Assembly: GCA_027621405.1 (NCBI GenBank)
Contig: JAQCBT010000001.1
Coordinates: 124,001-188,000, forward strand
Length of the DNA: 64,000 bases
Direction of reading: 5' to 3'
Source: Pseudomonadota bacterium
Lineage (GTDB): Bacteria; Pseudomonadota; Gammaproteobacteria; Pseudomonadales; Pseudohongiellaceae
The first letter of the stretch is position 1, and each line of letters begins with the position of its first letter. This document shows positions 8,533 to 53,128 of the stretch, piece by piece. Both the position numbers and the translations under genes were made by a program. The notes below the pieces were generated by a model. It worked only from the letters and a program-made list of their open reading frames with translations, made no database searches and had not been told where the DNA came from.

Positions 8533-11500
8533 ATGCCACGCAGAACCGACATAGAAAGCATCCTGATAATTGGCGCCGGCCCCATCGTGATTGGCCAGGC
8601 CTGCGAATTCGACTATTCCGGGGCACAAGCTTGCCAGGCGTTAAAGGAGGAGGGCTACCGGGTAATCCTGGTGAATTCCAATCCCGCCACGATTATGACC
8701 GACCCTGCCATGGCAGATGCTACCTACATAGAGCCAATCAAATGGGAGATCGTTGAAAAGATCATTGAGAAGGAGCGACCCGATGCCGTGTTGCCCACAA
8801 TGGGAGGCCAAACTGCACTGAACTGTGCTTTGGATCTTAATCGTCACGGTGTATTGGAGAAATACGGGGTCGAACTGATTGGTGCGGACAGCAAAGCAAT
8901 CGACAAGGCTGAGGACCGGGAGCTATTTGACAATGCGATGGTTGCTATCGGATTGGAGACTCCTCGCCATGCCATAGCGCACAACATGGAAGATGCTTAC
9001 AAGGCACTCGAACAGATTGGCTTCCCCTGCATCATTCGGCCCTCCTTTACTATGGGCGGCAGCGGTGGCGGTATTGCCTACAACAAAGAGGAATTCGAGG
9101 AAATCTGTTCTCGAGGCCTTGAATGGTCGCCTACCAATGAGTTGTTAATCGATGAGTCCCTGATTGGCTGGAAGGAGTATGAGCTGGAAGTGGTCAGGGA
9201 CAGGAATGACAACTGCATCATTGTCTGTACCATCGAAAACTTCGATGCCATGGGTGTCCACACCGGTGACTCAATTACGGTCGCGCCATCCCAGACCCTG
9301 ACCGACAAGGAATACCAGATACTGCGAAATGCGGCTATCGATGTACTGCGGGAAATTGGTGTGGAAACCGGTGGCTCCAATGTGCAGTTTGGTATTCATC
9401 CGGAAACCGGACGCCTGGTAGTAATCGAAATGAATCCACGAGTGTCTCGATCTTCTGCTCTGGCTTCCAAGGCAACCGGCTTTCCTATCGCGAGAGTCGC
9501 CGCCAAGCTGGCTGTCGGATTTACCCTTGATGAGTTAAGCAATGAAATCACAGGGGGAGCAACGCCGGCATCCTTCGAGCCGACCATCGACTACGTGGTG
9601 ACGAAGATTCCCCGCTACACATTTGAAAAATTCCCTGAGGCCAATGACCGCCTGACCACCCAGATGAAATCGGTTGGCGAGGTGATGGCCATCGGGCGCA
9701 CGTTCCAGGAATCACTGCAGAAGGCCCTGCGTGGCCTTGAAGTTGGCATGTGTGGGTTCGATCCGATTCTCGACAGTGACCTGAGCGATGCCAAGCAGGT
9801 ACTTACCAGGGAGTTGACCGAGGCCGGCGCACATCGCATCTGGTATATCGCCGAGGCGTTCAGGCAGGGTTGGTCCCTGAATACTGTTCATGACCTGACC
9901 CGAATCGATCCATGGTTCCTTGTGCAGATTGAGGAAATCATTGCACTGGAGGGCAAGATTGAGGAGCGAGGGTTGCAGGGAATCGACTACGATTTCATGC
10001 GGCAGCTGAAGCGCAAGGGTTTCGCTGATAAACGTATGGCGCAACTACTCGGTGTTCCGGAACTGGAAGTCCAAAAGCATCGCCACGATCTGGGAGTAAG
10101 GCCCGTCTATAAGCGAGTCGATACCTGTGCTGCAGAATTCGTATCGACCACTGCCTACATGTATTCAACCTATGAGGAAGAGTGTGAATCTCAACCCAGT
10201 GATCGCAAGAAGATCATGGTGCTGGGTGGTGGACCAAACCGTATCGGTCAAGGTATTGAGTTTGACTACTGCTGCGTACACGCCGCATTGGCTATGCGCG
10301 AGGATGGCTATGAGACCATCATGGTGAACTGTAATCCCGAAACGGTTTCAACGGACTATAACATCTCCGATCGACTCTACTTCGAGCCTCTCACTTTTGA
10401 AGACGTCATGGAAGTTGTGCTTCTTGAGAAACCCCATGGTGTGATCGTTCAGTTCGGTGGTCAGACTCCATTAAACCTGGCGACGGAACTTGAGGCAGCA
10501 GGTGTGCCAATCATTGGCACTTCTGCAGATGCTATCGATCTTGCAGAAGATCGGGAGCGATTCCAACAACTCATTCAGAAGCTGGGCTTGAAGCAACCTC
10601 CCAATAGCACTGTGCGAAGTGTAGAGGAAAGCATCGAGAAGGCTGTTGCAATTGACTATCCGCTGGTGGTGCGTCCCTCTTATGTGCTCGGTGGCCGCGC
10701 CATGGAGATTGTCTATAACGAGGCTGAACTGAAACGCTACATGAAAGAGGCGGTCATGGTCTCCAATGAGAGCCCGGTCCTGCTGGATCACTTTCTGAGC
10801 TCAGCCATCGAGATCGATGTTGATGTGGTGAGCGATGGCAAGCAGGTCGTGGTAGGAGCCATCATGCAGCATATCGAACAGGCGGGAATACACTCCGGTG
10901 ATTCTGCCTGCTCCTTGCCTCCATACAACTTGCCTATGGATGTGCAGGACAAGATCAGGCAGCAGGTCACCGACCTCGCGCTTGAGCTGGGCGTTGTGGG
11001 GCTGATGAATACCCAACTTGCCTATCAGGATGGAGAGATCTACATCATTGAGGTAAATCCCAGGGCTTCCCGAACTGTGCCTTTCGTTTCAAAATGCATC
11101 GGCACCTCACTGGCGAAGATAGCCGCTCGCTGCATGATTGGCCAATCACTGGAAGAGCAGGGCTTCACGAAAGAAGTCATTCCCAGCACTTTTGCGGTCA
11201 AAGAGGCGGTATTCCCATTCAACAAGTTCCCGGGGGTCGATCCGATTCTCGGCCCGGAAATGAAATCCACCGGTGAGGTGATGGGTGTTGGTGTTACCTT
11301 TGCCGAAGCCTATGCGAAATCCCAGCTTGGCGCTGGCGAAACGATAAAGACCAGTGGTAACGCCTTCATCAGTGTGCGCGATCGGGACAAGCCGGATGCT
11401 GTCGGGCTGGCGCAACGCCTGATTGATCTGGGTTACTCTGTGATCGCGACCCAGGGCACCGCACAGGTTCTGGCCGATGCAGGTATCGAAGTCACCAAGG

Positions 11501-11751
11501 TTAATAAGGTGGCGGAAGGTAGACCTCATATAGTTGATATGCTAAAAAATGACGAGGTTCAGGTGGTATTCAACACCACCGAGGGCAGGCAAGCTATCGC
11601 CGACTCCTCCCTGATTCGCAGGACGGCACTTAGACATAAAGTATTCTGTACCACGACCATCGCCGGGGCGCTCGCAGTATGTGACGCCTTGGAGTTCGGT
11701 AGTAATATGTCGGTGTACACCCTGCAAAAATTGCACGCCGACCTGCACTAG
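8533..11751 (+). CDS. carB: carbamoyl-phosphate synthase, large subunit
   Basis: CarB makes carbamoyl phosphate from bicarbonate, ammonia and two ATP. The 1072 residues show the duplicated ATP-grasp architecture. The first half opens with [24 protein letters not shown] and has [17 protein letters not shown]. The second half opens with [20 protein letters not shown] and has [17 protein letters not shown]-terminal MGS-like allosteric domain follows (from about 940, [18 protein letters not shown]). Size is nearly identical to the E. coli enzyme. greA follows 90 bp downstream, the carAB-greA arrangement known from Pseudomonas. Confidence 0.98.
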
Positions 11752-41795: not shown

Positions 41796-42680
41796 ATGCA
41801 ACTCTGGATACTCTTTACATTGTTGGCGGTGGTGATGCAGTCAGTACGCACCGCTGGCCAGAAGCAGATAGCTAATCGGCTGTCAATTGAAGCCACGACT
41901 CTCGTGCGGTTCTTGTTTGGTCTGCCCTTTGCTGGCGCCTATTGCCTCAGTCTGGTGTGGCGAGATGGCCAGGTAGAGTTCTTACCTGGAGTGAGCTTCT
42001 TTGCTTCTTCAAGCCTTGCGGCGATCGCTCAGATTGGCGCTACGTTCTGCCTCGTTCGTGCCTTGACCATCAAGAACTTCGCGGTGGGCACAGCGCTCGC
42101 CAAAACGGAAGCCATCATGACTGCATTACTGGGCGCCATATTTTTCTCGGCCAGCCTCAGTCTGCTGGGTTACCTGTCGGTGATAGTAGGAGTGGCAGGT
42201 GTGCTGACGGCGAGCCAATGGCGGTTTAGCTGGCGGGATCTGTTCGAGAACGACAGTATAAAATTTGGATTGGGGGCCGGGCTTGGTTTCGCGCTGGCAT
42301 CACTGTGGATTCGTGAGGCCTCGCTTTCCCTTAATATCTCGCCGTTGATCAGTTCTTCCATGGTCCTGTTCTACATGGTGGCATTGCAGACCGCTATCTG
42401 CCTGGTCTGGGTTGTATGGCGGGATTCGAGTCAGCTGGGACTCATCAGGAGAAACCTTCGAGCCTCTCTCTTTATTGGCTTTACCAGTGTGGCGGGTTCT
42501 GTTGGCTGGTTTACGGCGATGAGCCTGCAGGAGGCTGCGCTTGTGAAGACCCTGGGGCAGCTAGAGTTTGTAGTTACCCTGCTGATCACCTATCGCTATT
42601 TCGGAGAGCGCATCAACGCCAGGGAATATCTCGGCATACTGCTAGTGGTTGTCAGTATTGGCTTGTTGCTGTCCAGGTGA
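41796..42680 (+). CDS. EamA-family (DMT) transporter
   Basis: A 294-residue protein with about ten hydrophobic helices in two repeated five-helix halves, the EamA layout (first half ending near residue 145, second starting FENDSIKFGLGAGLGFAL). Members export metabolites and amino acids. Substrate cannot be inferred. LEFVVTLLITYRYFGERINAREYLGILLVVVSIGLLL at the C-terminus is typical. No Shine-Dalgarno is evident. It converges with the methyltransferase gene across a hairpin. Confidence 0.85.
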   Translation: MQLWILFTLLAVVMQSVRTAGQKQIANRLSIEATTLVRFLFGLPFAGAYCLSLVWRDGQVEFLPGVSFFASSSLAAIAQIGATFCLVRALTIKNFAVGTALAKTEAIMTALLGAIFFSASLSLLGYLSVIVGVAGVLTASQWRFSWRDLFENDSIKFGLGAGLGFALASLWIREASLSLNISPLISSSMVLFYMVALQTAICLVWVVWRDSSQLGLIRRNLRASLFIGFTSVAGSVGWFTAMSLQEAALVKTLGQLEFVVTLLITYRYFGERINAREYLGILLVVVSIGLLLSR

Positions 42681-45918: not shown

Positions 45919-47253
45919 TTAATATTGTTGCAGCTTGCGATACAGAGATCGCGTGCTGATGCCCAGAATGGCAGCCGCTCGCTCCTTGTCTCCATCACAG
46001 GCGGAGACAACGCTGTCGAGGTATTGTCGTTCGTGGGTCTTCAGGTCAACCCATTCGGTTTCGCTATTATTGCCGCTACCGGTACCGACGGGAAGCGTAG
46101 TTTGACGGCCCGGAGCGTCTTCGAGGGCGAGTTCGATTACCTGTTCATCGATGACATTGGTATCCGTCAATACCAGCGCCCGGCTTATCAGATTGCGTAA
46201 CTCCCTGATGTTGCCTCGGTAGTCCAGTGTCTGCAGTTTCTGGACGGCAGACGCGGTGAGTTTGTGTTTGCCAGTTTTGTCGATCTTCGTCAGCAGGGAT
46301 TTTGCCAGCAAGGGTATATCGCCGCGGCGCTCGGCGAGAGAGGGGAGGAGGATAGGGAATACATTGATGCGGTAGAACAGGTCATTCCTGAACTCGCCGC
46401 TCTCTACCATCTCGAACAGATTCTTGTGGGTGGCACAGATGAGTCGGAAATCCGAACTGCGTACTTCCGAGTTGCCCAGCGGTCTGAAAGTTCCTGTCTC
46501 GATCAGGCGTAACAACTTGACCTGCATGGACAGCGGAATGTCTCCCACTTCGTCCAGGAAAAGAGTGCCACCATCGGCCAACTCCACCAATCCTTTTTTG
46601 CTATTGAGTGCACCGGTGAATGCGCCTTTCATGTGGCCAAACAATTCACTTTCAAACAGCGCATCGGTCAATCCGGCACATTCCAGGGTGACCAGTGGTT
46701 TTTCTGCGCGGGCGCTGGCCAGGTGAATCGCCCGGGCAGCCAGTTCCTTGCCCGTGCCCGATTCGCCGAGCAGCAGTACGGAAGCATTGCTATCGCCGAC
46801 CCGGGAGATCTTGGCCAGCATCTTTTTGAACTGCTCGCTCTCACCCACCATTTCCTGATCCGAACCGACCCCGCTGGCGAGAGGAACCGGTTGCAGCAGT
46901 TCGACGAAGTAGATGAGTTCGCCATCGCTGTCGTGGATGGGAACCATCTCCACGTCGACATGTTCCGGTCCCCTCGGCGTCTGGTGGATGTGCAGGACCC
47001 GCTCCTTGTGCCCTGATTGCCTGGCAGCTCCCAGTGGGCAGTCCTCCCCAGCCTGATCGCAGGGCACCTTGTAGCCGTGTGAGATCTGGAAGCAATGATT
47101 GCTGCGCCCAAAGTCGATGGCGCCAAAGGCTTCCTCGTAACGCTTGTTGCTGGCGAGGATCTCGTAGTCTGCCGAAACCAGGATCGCCGGGCAGTCAAAT
47201 CCGTTGAGCATTTCGCCCATGCCACGGCTGGAATCTGAGGCAATTATGTTCAT
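45919..47253 (-). CDS. fisR: FisR-type sigma-54-dependent activator (sulfane-sulfur sensor)
   Basis: The 444-residue activator has an N-terminal PAS-like domain (about 10-125). A sigma-54 AAA+ domain follows, with Walker A GESGTGKE (163-170) and GAFTGA (210-215) for sigma-54 contact, then a C-terminal Fis-type helix-turn-helix ([18 protein letters not shown]). The PAS domain carries Cys54, Cys65 and Cys72. The 11 and 7 residue steps match, as I recall, the Cys53/64/71 of Cupriavidus FisR, which senses sulfane sulfur and activates sqr and pdo. It is divergent from exactly those genes, across a -24/-12 promoter. Threonine ammonia-lyase lies downstream. Confidence 0.9.
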
Positions 47254-47287
47254 AGCTTTCCAAGTGGGGTAGCAGCTATGCCAAAAA

Positions 47288-47314
47288 TGACAAGCAATTA
47301 TGTCAAATATGACA
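47288..47314. promoter_or_regulatory. candidate FisR upstream activator sites
   Basis: Three TGACA half-sites occur in alternating orientation: TGACA (47288-47292), TGTCA (47301-47305) and TGACA (47310-47314). The last two form TGTCA-N4-TGACA. They lie about 100 bp before the -24 element, where NtrC-type activators bind, and 35-60 bp from the fisR start, allowing autocontrol. Confidence 0.55.
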
Positions 47315-47402
47315 ATTTAAGGCAAATACCGTACTTCTGTAATATCGGGAACTCGATACTAACTATCTGATATATAAACATATAATGGGATATTTCAAAG
47401 AT

Positions 47403-47418
47403 TGGCACAGGCTATGCA
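47403..47418 (+). promoter_or_regulatory. sigma-54 promoter of the sulfide oxidation operon
   Basis: TGGCACA-GGCT-ATGCA matches the consensus TGGCACG-N4-TTGCA with two changes, and has GG and GC at exact -24/-12 spacing. The start would be near 47429, 66 nt before the small membrane protein gene. Confidence 0.82.
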
Positions 47419-47494
47419 ACAACTCCTGTATAGCGTGACGTTGTCACCCATAATGGCGAAACCTCCCGTGAATCCATGCTTTGAGGAGAATACA

Positions 47495-47584
47495 ATGCTT
47501 AGTGTGAAAAACATGCTTTATCTCATGACTACCCCGGTTACTACTGCGGTACTCTGTTGGCTAATCTGGATCTACCTGGTCTGA
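47495..47584 (+). CDS. 29-residue single-helix membrane protein, first gene of the sulfide operon
   Basis: The ATG at 47495 has a near-perfect GAGGAG 6 nt upstream. It encodes 29 residues, starting MLSVKNMLYLMTTPVT and ending in a hydrophobic stretch CWLIWIYLV. The C-terminal half would form one transmembrane helix, with one Cys and two Trp. It lies between the sigma-54 promoter and pdo, with 31 bp to pdo. I know no named family. Placement and ribosome site argue that it is translated. It might anchor or modulate the quinone-linked SQR, which is a guess. Confidence 0.65.
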   Translation: MLSVKNMLYLMTTPVTTAVLCWLIWIYLV

Positions 47585-47615
47585 AACGTCGGCATTCTTT
47601 GATTGGAGAATAGAT

Positions 47616-48515
47616 ATGAACCAAAGTAACACTGCGGAAAAGCTCGACCAGGTCAAACCGAAGGTCGTACCGTTCTTTGATGAGGATACCAACACCTTCT
47701 CCTATGTGGTGCGAGATCCCTATTCGTCGTCATGTGCCATCATCGATTCCGTGCTGGATTTCGATCTTGCCTCCGGATCAGTAGATCACAGGGGTGCGCA
47801 GGCGATCATTCGGTATATCGAAGAGAAGAAGCTGGAAGTGGAATGGATCATCGAGACACACGTCCATGCAGACCATCTCTCTGCTGCGCCATACCTGAAG
47901 GATTTCGTTGGTGGCAAGATTGCCATCGGGGAATACGTGACCACCGTGCAGCACACCTTCGGTGAAATTTTTAATGCCGGCGACGATTTCAAGCGCGATG
48001 GTTCGCAGTTCGATCATCTCTTTAAAGACGGTGAGAAATATCGGATTGGCAACCTGGAAGCCTATGCGATCCATACACCGGGACATACGCCAGCGTGCAT
48101 GACCCATGTGATCGGCAATGCGGCGTTTGTCGGCGACACCTTGTTCATGCCAGACGCGGGTACTGCCCGGGCGGATTTCCCTGGTGGTGATGCGGCGACC
48201 CTGTATCAGTCGATCCAGAAGATACTGAGCCTGCCGGCTCGTACCAAAATCTTTATGTGTCATGACTACGGTGCCGAGGGTCGGGAACTGGAGTACAAGA
48301 CTACCGTGAAGGAAGAGCTCGAGAGCAATATCCACGTAAACGAGAAAATAGCGCAAGCGGATTTCGTTGCCATGCGCGAGGCGAGAGACAAGACTCTCGA
48401 TGTGCCACATCTTATCCTGCCCTCCCTGCAGGTAAACATGCGCGCCGGGTATCTTCCTCCACCGGAAAACAACGGACGAATCTTCCTGAAGATTCCCCTG
48501 GACGCATTGCGCTAA
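47616..48515 (+). CDS. pdo: persulfide dioxygenase (ETHE1/Blh-like metallo-beta-lactamase fold)
   Basis: PDO oxidises glutathione persulfide to sulfite with O2 at a mononuclear iron. The 299-residue protein has the metal motif THVHADHLSAAPYL (from residue 81), HTPGHTPACMTHVIG, VGDTLFMPDAGTARADFPGG and FMCHDYG. These features distinguish ETHE1-like dioxygenases from glyoxalase II. GGAG precedes the ATG. It follows the small membrane gene and precedes the SQR gene by 18 bp. In the module SQR makes persulfide from H2S and PDO removes it. Confidence 0.93.
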   Translation: MNQSNTAEKLDQVKPKVVPFFDEDTNTFSYVVRDPYSSSCAIIDSVLDFDLASGSVDHRGAQAIIRYIEEKKLEVEWIIETHVHADHLSAAPYLKDFVGGKIAIGEYVTTVQHTFGEIFNAGDDFKRDGSQFDHLFKDGEKYRIGNLEAYAIHTPGHTPACMTHVIGNAAFVGDTLFMPDAGTARADFPGGDAATLYQSIQKILSLPARTKIFMCHDYGAEGRELEYKTTVKEELESNIHVNEKIAQADFVAMREARDKTLDVPHLILPSLQVNMRAGYLPPPENNGRIFLKIPLDALR

Positions 48516-48533
48516 ATCGAGGTCGCCTTTGTC

Positions 48534-50243
48534 ATGAAGATTCAAGTGATTAATGAACAGTTGAGTGTCTCCGGTCAGATTTCGACCGAGGAAGTGAAGC
48601 AACTGGCGGACGAGGGGGTAGAACTCCTCGTCTGCAATCGCCCGGAAGGCGAGGCGGCGGATCAGACTCCCTTCGCTGAGATCGCTGCGGCTGCCAAGGG
48701 TGCCGGCATAGAGGCTGTCCAGATTGCCTTCAAGAGTGGCGAGATGAAGCCCGGCCAGGTCGCCGAATTTGCAGATCTACTGGGCACTAAAAAGAAAATC
48801 CATGCCTACTGCCGAACTGGCAACAGGTCGTTTAACTTGTATTCGGCGGCCTTTGCGGCGTCAGGTGGCCCCAAGGAAGAGATTCTGGCCAAAGCCGAGC
48901 AGGTGGGAATCAACGTTAACGATACAATTAATCCCTACTATTCGGGAGACCAGAATTCCATGGCAGCAGAAGCGAAGATCTCACAGTTTCAATCCGGGGC
49001 AACTCCGTCCTATGATGTGGTCATAGTCGGCGCCGGTTCCGGTGGTATTTCCGCGGCCTCCAGCTTACTCAAGCGGGTGAGTGGCATTCGTATCGCATTG
49101 ATCGATCCGGCGGAAGAGCACTTCTACCAGCCTGGGTGGACCATGGTCGGGGGTGGTGTGTTCGACGTAACCAGTACGCGTCGACGCATGGAGGACCTTA
49201 TCCCTGCCAGAACAACCTGGATCAAGCAGGCCGTCAAAGGATTTCATCCTGCTGAGAACGAGGTGGAACTGGAAGATGGCAGTCACATCGGATACGAACA
49301 GCTAATCGTGGCGCCAGGCCTCAAGCTGAACCTCGATGCAGTCAAGGGCTTCAGGGAGTCCCTGGGCAAGAATGGTGTCACCACGAACTATCTGTACCAA
49401 TACGCACCCTATACTTTCGAGCTCGTGAAGGGACTAAAGCAGGGTAAGGCTCTGTTTACCCAACCTCCCATGCCGATCAAGTGCGCGGGTGCGCCGCAGA
49501 AGGCTCTGTATCTTTCCTGTGACTACTGGCGTCGCAATAACGTTTTGAACAACATCGATGTGGACTTTATGAACGCAGGTGGCGTGTTGTTTGGTGTGAG
49601 TGATTATGTGCCAGCCCTGCAGTCCTACATCGATCGTTATGGCGCGAACGTCAATTACAACTGCAACCTGGAAGCAATCGATGCCGATGCCAAGACGGCC
49701 CAGTTCCGTGTTGTGGCTGGCGAGCGTGAGGGTGAGGAAATCACGAAGCCCTTCGATATGATTCATGTCTGTCCGCCGCAGTGCGCACCAGACTTTGTTT
49801 CCCAGAGTGAGTTGGCAGGTCCCGGCGGTTGGCTGGAGGTTGATCAGTTCAGTCTGCAGCACGTGCGCTTCGCCAACGTATGGGGTCTCGGTGATGTCAT
49901 GAACACGCCCAATGCCAAGACCATGGCGGCAGTACGCAAGCAGGTGCCTGTCGTGGCGCAGAACATTGCCGATGTCCTCAAGGGTCGCACGATCCACTCC
50001 GGTTACGATGGTTATGGGTCCTGTCCACTGACTGTGGAGAATGGCAAAATTGTGTTGGCCGAGTTCGGCTACGGCGGCAAAATACTCCCTACCTTCCCAA
50101 CCTGGTTGCTGCAGGGCAAGAATCCCACGCGATCAGCCTGGATTCTGAAGAAAGACATCCTGCCTGGCATCTACTGGAATGCGATGTTGAAAGGCCGGGA
50201 GTGGATGGCTGGCCCCCAAGACCTGGATAGGCTACGCTCCTGA
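48534..50243 (+). CDS. sqr: sulfide:quinone oxidoreductase with N-terminal DUF442 domain
   Basis: The 569-residue fusion starts with a DUF442/phosphatase-like domain (1-110) bearing the CX5R loop CRTGNRS (93-99). Such domains are proposed sulfur or persulfide transferases. From about residue 160 a flavoprotein follows, with FAD motif VVIVGAGSGGISAA (163-176). Two redox Cys fit type II SQR, Cys317 (PIKCAGAP) and Cys497 (GSCPLTVENGK). A membrane-facing C-terminus has WLLQGKNPTRSAWILKK. It would oxidise sulfide, reduce quinone at the inner membrane and hand the persulfide to the fused domain, then to PDO. SulP starts 1 bp after the stop. Confidence 0.93.
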   Translation: MKIQVINEQLSVSGQISTEEVKQLADEGVELLVCNRPEGEAADQTPFAEIAAAAKGAGIEAVQIAFKSGEMKPGQVAEFADLLGTKKKIHAYCRTGNRSFNLYSAAFAASGGPKEEILAKAEQVGINVNDTINPYYSGDQNSMAAEAKISQFQSGATPSYDVVIVGAGSGGISAASSLLKRVSGIRIALIDPAEEHFYQPGWTMVGGGVFDVTSTRRRMEDLIPARTTWIKQAVKGFHPAENEVELEDGSHIGYEQLIVAPGLKLNLDAVKGFRESLGKNGVTTNYLYQYAPYTFELVKGLKQGKALFTQPPMPIKCAGAPQKALYLSCDYWRRNNVLNNIDVDFMNAGGVLFGVSDYVPALQSYIDRYGANVNYNCNLEAIDADAKTAQFRVVAGEREGEEITKPFDMIHVCPPQCAPDFVSQSELAGPGGWLEVDQFSLQHVRFANVWGLGDVMNTPNAKTMAAVRKQVPVVAQNIADVLKGRTIHSGYDGYGSCPLTVENGKIVLAEFGYGGKILPTFPTWLLQGKNPTRSAWILKKDILPGIYWNAMLKGREWMAGPQDLDRLRS

Positions 50244-50244
50244 T

Positions 50245-51960
50245 ATGAAACCAGCCTACCTGTCATTGCCCATCATCAAGTGGGCCCGCAGGTATACACG
50301 AGAAGATCTGGCGAGTGACATGGTTGCTGCGGTTATCGTGGCAATCATGTTGATTCCGCAATCCCTTGCCTACGCACTTCTGGCTGGATTGCCTGCGGAG
50401 GTCGGGCTCTATGCGAGTATCGCACCTCTATTGGCTTATGCAGTGCTGGGTTCCAGTCGAACGCTCTCGGTAGGGCCAGTTGCCATTACGTCCCTGATGA
50501 CCGCTGCCGCGCTCGCTGAAGTTGCGGAGCAGGGAACGGCGGACTATCTGTCCGCTGCCACGACACTCGCGTTGTTGTCGGGTCTGATGTTGTTTGCCTG
50601 TGGAGCACTACGTCTCGGTATCGTCGCCAATTTCCTGTCCCACTCCGTTGTTTCTGCCTTCATTACCGCCTCTGCGATCATCATCGCTTTGAGCCAGCTA
50701 CGGCACTTGCTGGGAATAGAGGCTGGCGGTGATACAGTGCTGGAAATAATTGGCGAGTTGGAAACAGGACTCACCGAAACCAATTTCGTGACACTCGCCA
50801 TCGGTGGTGGTGTCGTGCTATTCCTGTTCGCGGTGCGTTGGTGGGGTTCCGCTACGCTTGAGGGAATGGGGCTCAAGGCTGGTACCGCAAACTTGCTGAC
50901 CAAGACTGCTCCCGTATTCGGCGTCATCTTTACCATAATACTGGTTAGCCAACTCGACCTGACGAGTCATGATGTGGATGTTGTCGGCGTGATTCCCACG
51001 GGCCTGCCCATGCCTGCTATGCCAGCTATCTCCCTGGAACTCGTCGAACAGTTGTGGGTACCGGCCGCATTGATTTCCCTGATCGGATACGTGGAGTCCA
51101 TATCTGTCGGGCGCACATTGGGCGCAAGGAGGAGGGAGCGGGTCAGCAATGACCAGGAATTGATTGGTCTAGGTGCGGCAAATGTGGCGGCTTCCATATC
51201 CGGCGGCTTCCCGGTTACCGGCGGCTTCTCTCGCTCGGTGGTGAACTTCGACGCAGGCGCCAGAACCCAGGCCGCCAGTATATTCAGTGCGCTACTCATC
51301 GCGCTGGTGGCGATCCTCTTGACGCCTTACCTGTATAACCTGCCCAAGGCGACACTGGCAGCCACCATCGTGGTAGCCGTCCTCTCGCTGGTTGATTTCT
51401 CCATATTGGGAAAGACCTGGCGCTTCGCTAAAGGAGATTATTTCGCCGTCCTGTTGACCCTGGTTATGACCCTGGCATTCGGAGTCGAGATCGGCGTCAG
51501 TAGTGGTGTGTTCCTCTCCCTGGGATTGCACCTGTACCGCACCGCCAAGCCCCATGTGGCTGAGGTAGGCCTGGTTGAAGGTTCTCAGCACTTTCGCAAC
51601 GTGCGCCGCTACAAGGTGGAGACTGATCCCTCCGTGCTCAACCTGCGCGTTGACGAGAGCCTGTTTTTCGCGAACGCGGCTCTGCTGGAAGACGTTATCT
51701 ATCACCGGGTATTTCGAGATAGCAGAATCGCCCACGTGGTGTTGATGTGTAACGCGGTCAATGAAGTCGACTACAGTGCACTGGAAACTCTCGAAGAGAT
51801 AAATCAGCGACTCTACGAGGAAGGCGTGCAATTACATCTTTCCGAGGTTAAGGGCCCGGTGCTGGATAAACTGGAAAGGGTGCATTTCCTGGATCATCTA
51901 AGCGGAAATCTGTATATGACCCAGTACCAGGCCTATACCGATCTCAGCGGCCAGGCTTAA
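50245..51960 (+). CDS. SulP-family anion transporter with STAS domain
   Basis: The 571-residue protein has the SulP membrane domain (about ten to fourteen helices, signature DMVAAVIVAIMLIPQSLAYALLAGLPAEVGLYASI). A C-terminal STAS domain follows (about 455-560, VLNLRVDESLFFANAALLED...VVLMCNAVNEVDYSALETLEEI). It starts one base after the SQR stop, so translation is probably coupled. In this operon it probably moves sulfite, sulfate or a related anion made by persulfide oxidation. Direction and substrate are inferred from context only. Confidence 0.9.
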   Translation: MKPAYLSLPIIKWARRYTREDLASDMVAAVIVAIMLIPQSLAYALLAGLPAEVGLYASIAPLLAYAVLGSSRTLSVGPVAITSLMTAAALAEVAEQGTADYLSAATTLALLSGLMLFACGALRLGIVANFLSHSVVSAFITASAIIIALSQLRHLLGIEAGGDTVLEIIGELETGLTETNFVTLAIGGGVVLFLFAVRWWGSATLEGMGLKAGTANLLTKTAPVFGVIFTIILVSQLDLTSHDVDVVGVIPTGLPMPAMPAISLELVEQLWVPAALISLIGYVESISVGRTLGARRRERVSNDQELIGLGAANVAASISGGFPVTGGFSRSVVNFDAGARTQAASIFSALLIALVAILLTPYLYNLPKATLAATIVVAVLSLVDFSILGKTWRFAKGDYFAVLLTLVMTLAFGVEIGVSSGVFLSLGLHLYRTAKPHVAEVGLVEGSQHFRNVRRYKVETDPSVLNLRVDESLFFANAALLEDVIYHRVFRDSRIAHVVLMCNAVNEVDYSALETLEEINQRLYEEGVQLHLSEVKGPVLDKLERVHFLDHLSGNLYMTQYQAYTDLSGQA

Positions 51961-52863: not shown

Positions 52864-53128
52864 AAGGAAGCTCTGATCAATTATGTTACATCTCTGGCTT
52901 GCAGCCGAGTCCGGTATCAAGGCGCAGTTTTGAAGGCATGCGTTGGCCTGTCAAAAACTGCTTTGCTGCAACCGAGCTCGGCTGCAAGCCCCAGAGGGCG
53001 GGCCTGTCGCGGTTTTCTGCCGCGTTGCCGCGCTTGCCAAGGGCTACGGCCATTGCCTGCGCACGGCGCCTTGCAGAAAATCGCCACAGGCTCCGCAGAG
53101 AAGCAACATAATTGATCAGAGCTTCCTT
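52864..53128. mobile_element. MITE-like element with 24-bp terminal inverted repeats
   Basis: The ends are perfect 24-bp inverted repeats starting AAGGAAGCTCTGATCAAT (52864-52887 and 53105-53128). Inside are two large imperfect hairpins: about 52892-52999, where CTTGCAGCCGAG pairs with CTCGGCTGCAAG and GCAGTTTTG with CAAAAACTGC; and about 53004-53095, where GCCTGTCGCGGTTTTCTGC pairs with GCAGAAAATCGCCACAGGC. No transposase is present and no clear target duplication is seen. A chance reading frame crosses it but looks non-coding. Confidence 0.75.

Follow-up and report, generated by a model that had tools for sequence, protein, structure and literature searches.

A predicted FisR- and sigma-54-controlled sulfide-detoxification operon with a conserved microprotein in a genome of the Pseudohongiellaceae

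In this study, we have analysed a window of 64,000 nucleotides (positions 124,001 to 188,000 of contig JAQCBT010000001.1, assembly GCA_027621405.1) from a gammaproteobacterium of the family Pseudohongiellaceae, in which a gene for a FisR-like activator faces an operon for a 29-residue microprotein, a persulfide dioxygenase (PDO), a DUF442 domain fused to a sulfide:quinone oxidoreductase (SQR) and a SulP-family transporter (Table 1). We propose, with a probability of about 0.85, that this is a FisR-controlled sulfide-detoxification operon of which the microprotein is a part. The proposal builds on the observed gene order, domains, cysteines, promoter, palindromes and co-occurrence of the microprotein, and it predicts the following biochemical and regulatory steps: (i) sulfide entering the cell would be oxidised by SQR to sulfane sulfur, (ii) sulfane sulfur would crosslink Cys54 and Cys65 of FisR, and (iii) FisR, on two TGYCA-N4-TGRCA sites, would drive sigma-54 RNA polymerase at TGGCAC-N6-TGCA. 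From the induced operon, PDO would convert sulfane sulfur to sulfite, SQR, which has a sulfurtransferase domain (DUF442) of its own, would be supplied in greater amount, SulP would move the resulting sulfite, sulfate or thiosulfate, and the membrane microprotein would also be made. Sulfane sulfur is thus the presumed inducer. An initial annotation, made from the letters of this DNA, had already read the locus as a FisR/sigma-54-controlled sulfide-oxidation module; open reading frames (ORFs) and domain calls bear out the activator facing this operon, all of the gene coordinates given there are correct, and its sequence-level predictions (cysteines, promoter, sites, gene order and rpoN) hold in relatives.

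The activator has the domain architecture of FisR (PAS_4, Sigma54_activat and HTH_8), and a divergent sigma-54 promoter, predicted by consensus only, precedes the sulfide-oxidising genes in a genome of 3.7 Mb (99.98% complete) that has a single rpoN gene. To place these features in context we compared 56 FisR loci, 54 of them distinct (L040 and L214 are the same, as are L129 and L318). Part of this set comes from the order, where the FisR N-terminal region was matched in 76 of 390 genomes; loci were taken from the best 30 matches, of which 24 were used (L295-L318) and six were duplicates of known places. The conservation figures cover this closer set of FisR proteins, and weaker matches, down to 35% identity, lie outside it. 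FisR of the window has cysteines at 21, 54, 65, 72, 192, 273 and 419, and the C-x10-C-x6-C arrangement of Cys54, Cys65 and Cys72 that had been claimed for it is exact in the translated protein. Cys65 and Cys72 are each kept in all 56 loci and Cys54 in 55, the sole exception being an alanine in a degraded copy (L126). The spacing fits a sulfane-sulfur-sensing FisR. The initial annotation gave it as that of the Cupriavidus sensor, which reportedly has the third cysteine as well. For the other two the match stands: sulfane sulfur joins Cys53 to Cys64 of the Cupriavidus protein, the counterparts of Cys54 and Cys65, as a tetrasulfide (PMC9495516).

The intergenic region carries the second line of evidence. 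In 45 of the 56 loci, a strict TGGCAY-N6-TGCW promoter is located at a distance of 60-230 nt from the start of FisR, against 0.055 expected (in first-order Markov sequences). In the window it reads TGGCACAGGCTATGCA, as had been claimed in the form TGGCAC-N5-ATGCA, and transcription would be expected to start near 47429. Alternating TGACA sites had also been described; the TGACA elements are there, and they resolve into two 14-bp palindromes, TGCCAAAAATGACA and TGTCAAATATGACA, whose spacing is 22 bp and whose ends fall 110 and 88 bp short of the promoter. Such a distance is the usual location of enhancer-type sites for sigma-54 activators. Among 55 loci (without L126), a strict TGYCA-N4-TGRCA palindrome occurs within the first 110 nt in 32 (0.025 expected), and one with at most one mismatch in 49 (0.86 expected). 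Where two sites with at most one mismatch each share a region, 26 of 33 pairs are spaced 21-22 bp, about two helical turns. Because promoter and palindromes are enriched across the compared FisR loci, a chance origin is excluded, and FisR is predicted to bind at the palindromes. The strict TGTCAN4TGACA form occurs at four places in the window genome, the three outside the locus each inside a long open frame, and this search gave no further regulon target, the looser TGYCAN4TGRCA and the promoter not having been searched genome-wide. A literature search found no FisR activating sequences in a sulfide context, and the original Cupriavidus paper may describe the site. Taken together, the promoter and the paired palindromes provide a sequence-defined putative FisR regulon signature that can be searched for in any genome. 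In one relative (L126 of G007, positions 10608-11617), a degraded fisR adjoins sqr and sulP, and the strict promoter and palindromes were not found.

The operon genes are those of a sulfide pathway. The initial annotation had suggested looking for the same gene order with FisR in related genomes, and in many relatives FisR does adjoin PDO-SQR-SulP. It had also called the module complete: PDO, SQR, SulP and FisR are indeed there, and the word is to be taken relatively, in that some relatives add a cytochrome bd, which is missing in the window genome. PDO has a Lactamase_B domain, and its best matches in the PDB, 9g8t (5.1e-111), 4ysk (8.3e-108) and 4efz (3e-106), bear names that say only metallo-beta-lactamase (MBL) protein. 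It also matches ETHE1 (4chl, 2.2e-18) and the PDO half of Blh (2.7e-117, under the whole-protein cut-off because DUF442 is absent), so that by its ETHE1/Blh-type MBL sequence it would be a persulfide dioxygenase. The SulP protein has Sulfate_transp and STAS domains above the curated cut-offs. By its sequence, the locus is a well-supported member of the FisR-PDO-SQR type with three variant features, namely the microprotein, a changed SQR cysteine and SulP as the transporter; the microprotein and SulP are the two additions that had been noted as extending the sqr-pdo core.

The changed cysteine concerns the fusion protein, which has BLH_phosphatase and Pyr_redox_2 domains and, as closest solved relative, human SQOR (E 1.3e-92 to 6mp5). 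The two human cysteines compared here, Cys201 and Cys379, we take to lie in the KCAGAPQK and GDC motifs. In human SQOR they act via a Cys379-S-S-S-Cys201 trisulfide, and the acceptor takes its sulfur from Cys379 (PMC11039317). In the window protein Cys317 corresponds to Cys201, Val455 stands at the position of Cys379, and Cys413 is additional. We compared 32 distinct SQR sequences, taken from loci of at least 6000 bases with a match of at least 300 residues; not all of them adjoin FisR. Cys317 is present in all 32, Cys497 in 31 and Cys413 (in HVCPP) in 25, and the position of human Cys379 is valine in 27 and cysteine in one (L134). Based on this, we file the protein, from its sequence, as a relative of the human type with a changed second cysteine and not as that type proper. 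Hypothetically, Cys413 could act with the fused DUF442; that it is essential in all these enzymes is argued against because L041 and L133 have neither Cys413 nor a cysteine at the 379 position. In view of this change, it becomes of interest how sulfane sulfur exits an enzyme to which DUF442 is attached. In three loci (L125, L213 and L215), two adjacent open frames encode DUF442 and SQR separately.

With the first operon gene, a microprotein family comes to light that is in neither Pfam nor NCBIfam. A profile built from seven ORFs gave 55 matches in 43 of 137 family genomes, with one copy in the window genome. Against the 390 order genomes it matched in 22, of which six were strong (E 2.5e-7 or better) and all in the genus of the window; the remaining 16 (E 0.007-0.046) probably arose by chance. 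Of 52 complete ORFs extracted, the window's included (weak matches in G015, G497 and G496 were left out), 26 have a strict promoter at most 360 nt away, and L219 adds a near-match with two strict palindromes. These 27 promoter-linked copies lie in 27 genomes, all of which have a FisR N-terminal match. The microprotein was also matched in 16 other genomes: FisR went unmatched in 14 of these, in G019 it sits at a contig end, and in G007 it is broken. FisR is also found in 24 further family genomes that have no promoter-linked microprotein; the microprotein is therefore an addition to a subset of FisR systems. FisR is adjacent to 22 of the 27 copies, on another contig in L218, L225, L227 and L230, and in L237 the copy is at a contig end.

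What follows the promoter-linked microprotein is variable. Downstream lie pdo-sqr-sulP in 10 of the 27, the window included (L181 ends with an added cydAB), cydAB-pdo-sqr-sulP in five (the L212 stretch ends within sqr), and pdo, sqr-sulP or other genes in two each; a further two precede a 227-246-aa membrane protein of no assigned kind, three (L227, L243 and L248) have no same-strand gene after them, and one (L040/L214) is followed by a gene and then by cbb3 genes. The intervening gene looks Yip1-like and has no NCBIfam match. The remaining 25 of the 52 copies have neither the strict promoter nor strict palindromes. L182:9303-9386 is one of these, and L182, L234 and L244 are typical in that the copy stands alone between two minus-strand genes (of about 185 and 400 codons) in a conserved place. 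In L243 (G468), FisR and the microprotein are kept in a 15-kb locus without pdo, sqr or sulP, and the next gene, on the opposite strand, is 67% identical to a transporter-like gene at 41796-42680 of the window.

Most of the chain is hydrophobic, and a basic residue stands near its start, as would suit a single membrane helix. The ORF is preceded by a Shine-Dalgarno-like GAGGAG. Among 25 distinct promoter-linked sequences, M7 and M11 never vary, K or R stands at position 5 in 24, C21 in 22, T17 in 21, A18 in 20, and W22, W25 and P14 in 19 each. A role of the conserved cysteine as an essential sensor was considered and rejected, C21 being missing in three of the 25. Five of the microproteins were searched against Pfam at E up to 10 and matched nothing, at a length at which HMMER filters drop many weak matches; in NCBIfam the same five gave a single chance-level match, of L040 to aquaporin Z (E 0.14). 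An ORF that is so short, comes first in the transcript, ends 31 nt before pdo and matches no Pfam or NCBIfam family could also be spurious or encode a leader peptide, and do no more than tune pdo translation, the rest being a known FisR-PDO-SQR operon. We regard this as very unlikely: in L243 and L248 the ORF is found by itself beside FisR, in L227 it is found by itself with a promoter and a palindrome, promoter-less copies make up 25 of the 52, and the residues M7, M11, C21 and P14 are kept as described. For unsaturated pairs, the ratio of nonsynonymous to synonymous differences (pN/pS) comes to 0.19 among the 9 of the cydAB group and to 0.39 among the 10 of the pdo group, though to a modest 0.54 when all 110 promoter-linked pairs are taken. 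The microprotein is thus probably not a leader peptide.

The neighbours of FisR in relatives link this sulfane-sulfur sensor directly to the genes of a sulfide-resistant cytochrome bd. Within L295-L318 (of which L296-L318 reach only some 1500 bases upstream of FisR), nine of the 24 loci have cydA directly opposite FisR (L299-L302, L308, L310-L312 and L316), all nine with strict promoter and strict palindrome, and 12 have PDO there (L296-L298, L303-L305, L307, L309, L313, L314, L317 and L318); in L306 and L315 FisR faces another gene or none. In L295 it faces a gene read as peroxiredoxin-like, then cydA. In L042-L045 (Amphritea and Neptunomonas), three-cysteine FisR-like genes have CydD-like ABC transporter genes opposite them and lack the strict sigma-54 promoter, CydD having been checked, and confirmed, for L043 only. 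Literature searches on FisR, cytochrome bd and RpoN control did not bring up a FisR-cydAB link. In such a light, FisR here might mainly answer respiratory or redox stress, with cytochrome bd as its ancestral target in the order and PDO-SQR-SulP recruited later. The nine cydA-facing loci, the peroxiredoxin-like gene of L295 and the CydD-like genes speak for this, as does the report for Acinetobacter baumannii that cydAB is sulfide-induced, without assignment to FisR (PMC7315123); PMC8148161 likewise has cydAB as sulfide-induced and does not assign it to FisR. Nevertheless, we think it improbable, as the sensor cysteines are the same in pdo- and cydA-facing loci, so that sulfane sulfur would be enough as the sole signal; according to PMC7315123, sulfide does not disable cytochrome bd itself, which is refractory to it.

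The window genome gave no cydA match, and within its genus cydA was matched in only two of 37 genomes (G023 and G026), in both within the FisR operon. The microprotein immediately precedes cydAB in the FisR operon of five relatives, and it could on that ground be a CydX-type subunit of cytochrome bd, left over after the loss of cydAB. This seems to us quite unlikely: no small-subunit model was matched in Pfam or NCBIfam at E up to 10 by the five sequences searched, the microprotein persists where cydA was not matched (in the window genome, G028, G016, G011, G009 and G024), and in L040/L214 it precedes the Yip1-like gene and cbb3 genes. We tentatively favour an inducible accessory of the respiratory membrane, which may serve a terminal oxidase, or the SQR-quinone step, as a small subunit or as a stabilising partner and so sustain respiration under sulfide; this proposal, the weakest step of the model, we hold at less than even odds. 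A wider and more doubtful extension would be that it founds a family of sulfide-induced respiratory microproteins, with FisR-switched and unswitched isoforms that assemble with the sulfide-exposed oxidoreductase present in the membrane of each species, be it cytochrome bd, cbb3 or SQR, and that a relocated Cys413 of SQR and Cys93 of DUF442 pass sulfur to PDO in place of the human Cys379 exit.

Several points weigh against a FisR-controlled detoxification operon that includes the microprotein. The strict promoter is absent in 11 of the 56 loci: L042-L045, L126, L129/L318 and L219 (these three with near-matches), L130, L315 and L317. At 26-61 nt from the start codon of FisR, the window palindromes could also, or only, serve autoregulation of fisR. 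Cys21, the fourth cysteine of the sensor domain, was rejected as a sulfane sensor, being conserved in just 33 of the 56 loci. A. baumannii FisR retains its sulfide response without the regulatory cysteines (PMC7315123), so that these are not the only possible sensing route. SQR activity is assumed, because the Cys379 equivalent is missing. As to the microprotein, FisR is interrupted in two of the 27 genomes with promoter-linked copies (two frames in G505, a stop in the match in G436), several of the 14 FisR-negative genomes are incomplete (65-89% in G008, G499, G487, G012, G467, G503 and G015), the pN/pS over all pairs is modest, and the respiratory role rests on relatives because here no oxidase gene follows and there is no cydA.

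Table 1. Features of the locus in window coordinates, with the basis of each assignment
Feature	Position	Strand	Description and basis
fisR	45919-47253	-	444 aa; PAS-like N-terminal sensor, AAA+ domain, Fis-type helix-turn-helix; domain calls
Putative FisR activator site 1, TGCCAAAAATGACA	47279-47292		14-bp palindrome; locus comparison
Putative FisR activator site 2, TGTCAAATATGACA	47301-47314		14-bp palindrome, 22 bp from site 1
Predicted sigma-54 -24/-12 promoter, TGGCACAGGCTATGCA	47403-47418	+	GG-N10-GC consensus
29-aa microprotein, MLSVKNMLYLMTTPVTTAVLCWLIWIYLV	47495-47584	+	First operon gene, one membrane helix probable; ORF and family comparison
pdo, persulfide dioxygenase	47616-48515	+	MBL fold; domain calls, PDB matches
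DUF442 sulfurtransferase domain fused to sulfide:quinone oxidoreductase	48534-50243	+	Domain calls, human SQOR comparison
SulP-family anion transporter with STAS	50245-51960	+	Last operon gene; domain calls, same position in many relatives

Beyond the operon, at 52864-53128 of the window, a pair of inverted arms of 33 nt (94% complementary) flanks 199 nt that contain a second inverted repeat, between genes for PPK2 and an alpha/beta hydrolase; this looks like a small mobile or repeat element.

Among the closest points of comparison is FisR of Cupriavidus pinatubonensis JMP134, reportedly described with its sulfide-oxidising genes by Li and co-workers in 2017. As there, the regulator is a sigma-54 activator with sulfide-oxidising genes as targets and a pair of cysteines 11 residues apart (53/64 there, 54/65 here). 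To our knowledge, the Cupriavidus operon has neither a microprotein nor SulP; the operon of the window has both, its DUF442 is fused to SQR, and its palindromes, which come from comparison, are possibly already known in Cupriavidus. In A. baumannii (operon A1S_1708-1711), FisR faces pdo-sqr-tauE and is needed for sulfide induction (PMC7315123). The two systems share a FisR divergent from pdo, sqr and a transporter gene and a predicted sigma-54 promoter; they differ in the transporter (TauE there, SulP here) and in the regulatory cysteines, which FisR does not have there, and the available part of that paper mentions no microprotein. With the Blh/BigR operon (NCBIfam NF040641; PMC5823870), the locus shares a DUF442 sulfurtransferase domain joined to a sulfide pathway, and its PDO matches the PDO half of Blh. 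However, DUF442 is fused to PDO there and to SQR here, and BigR is a repressor whereas FisR would be an activator. Finally, human SQOR (6oi5, 6mo6, 8dhk) is the best solved sequence relative of the SQR described here, with Cys201 kept as Cys317; unlike the human enzyme, this SQR has Val455 for Cys379, a new Cys413 and an N-terminal DUF442 domain.

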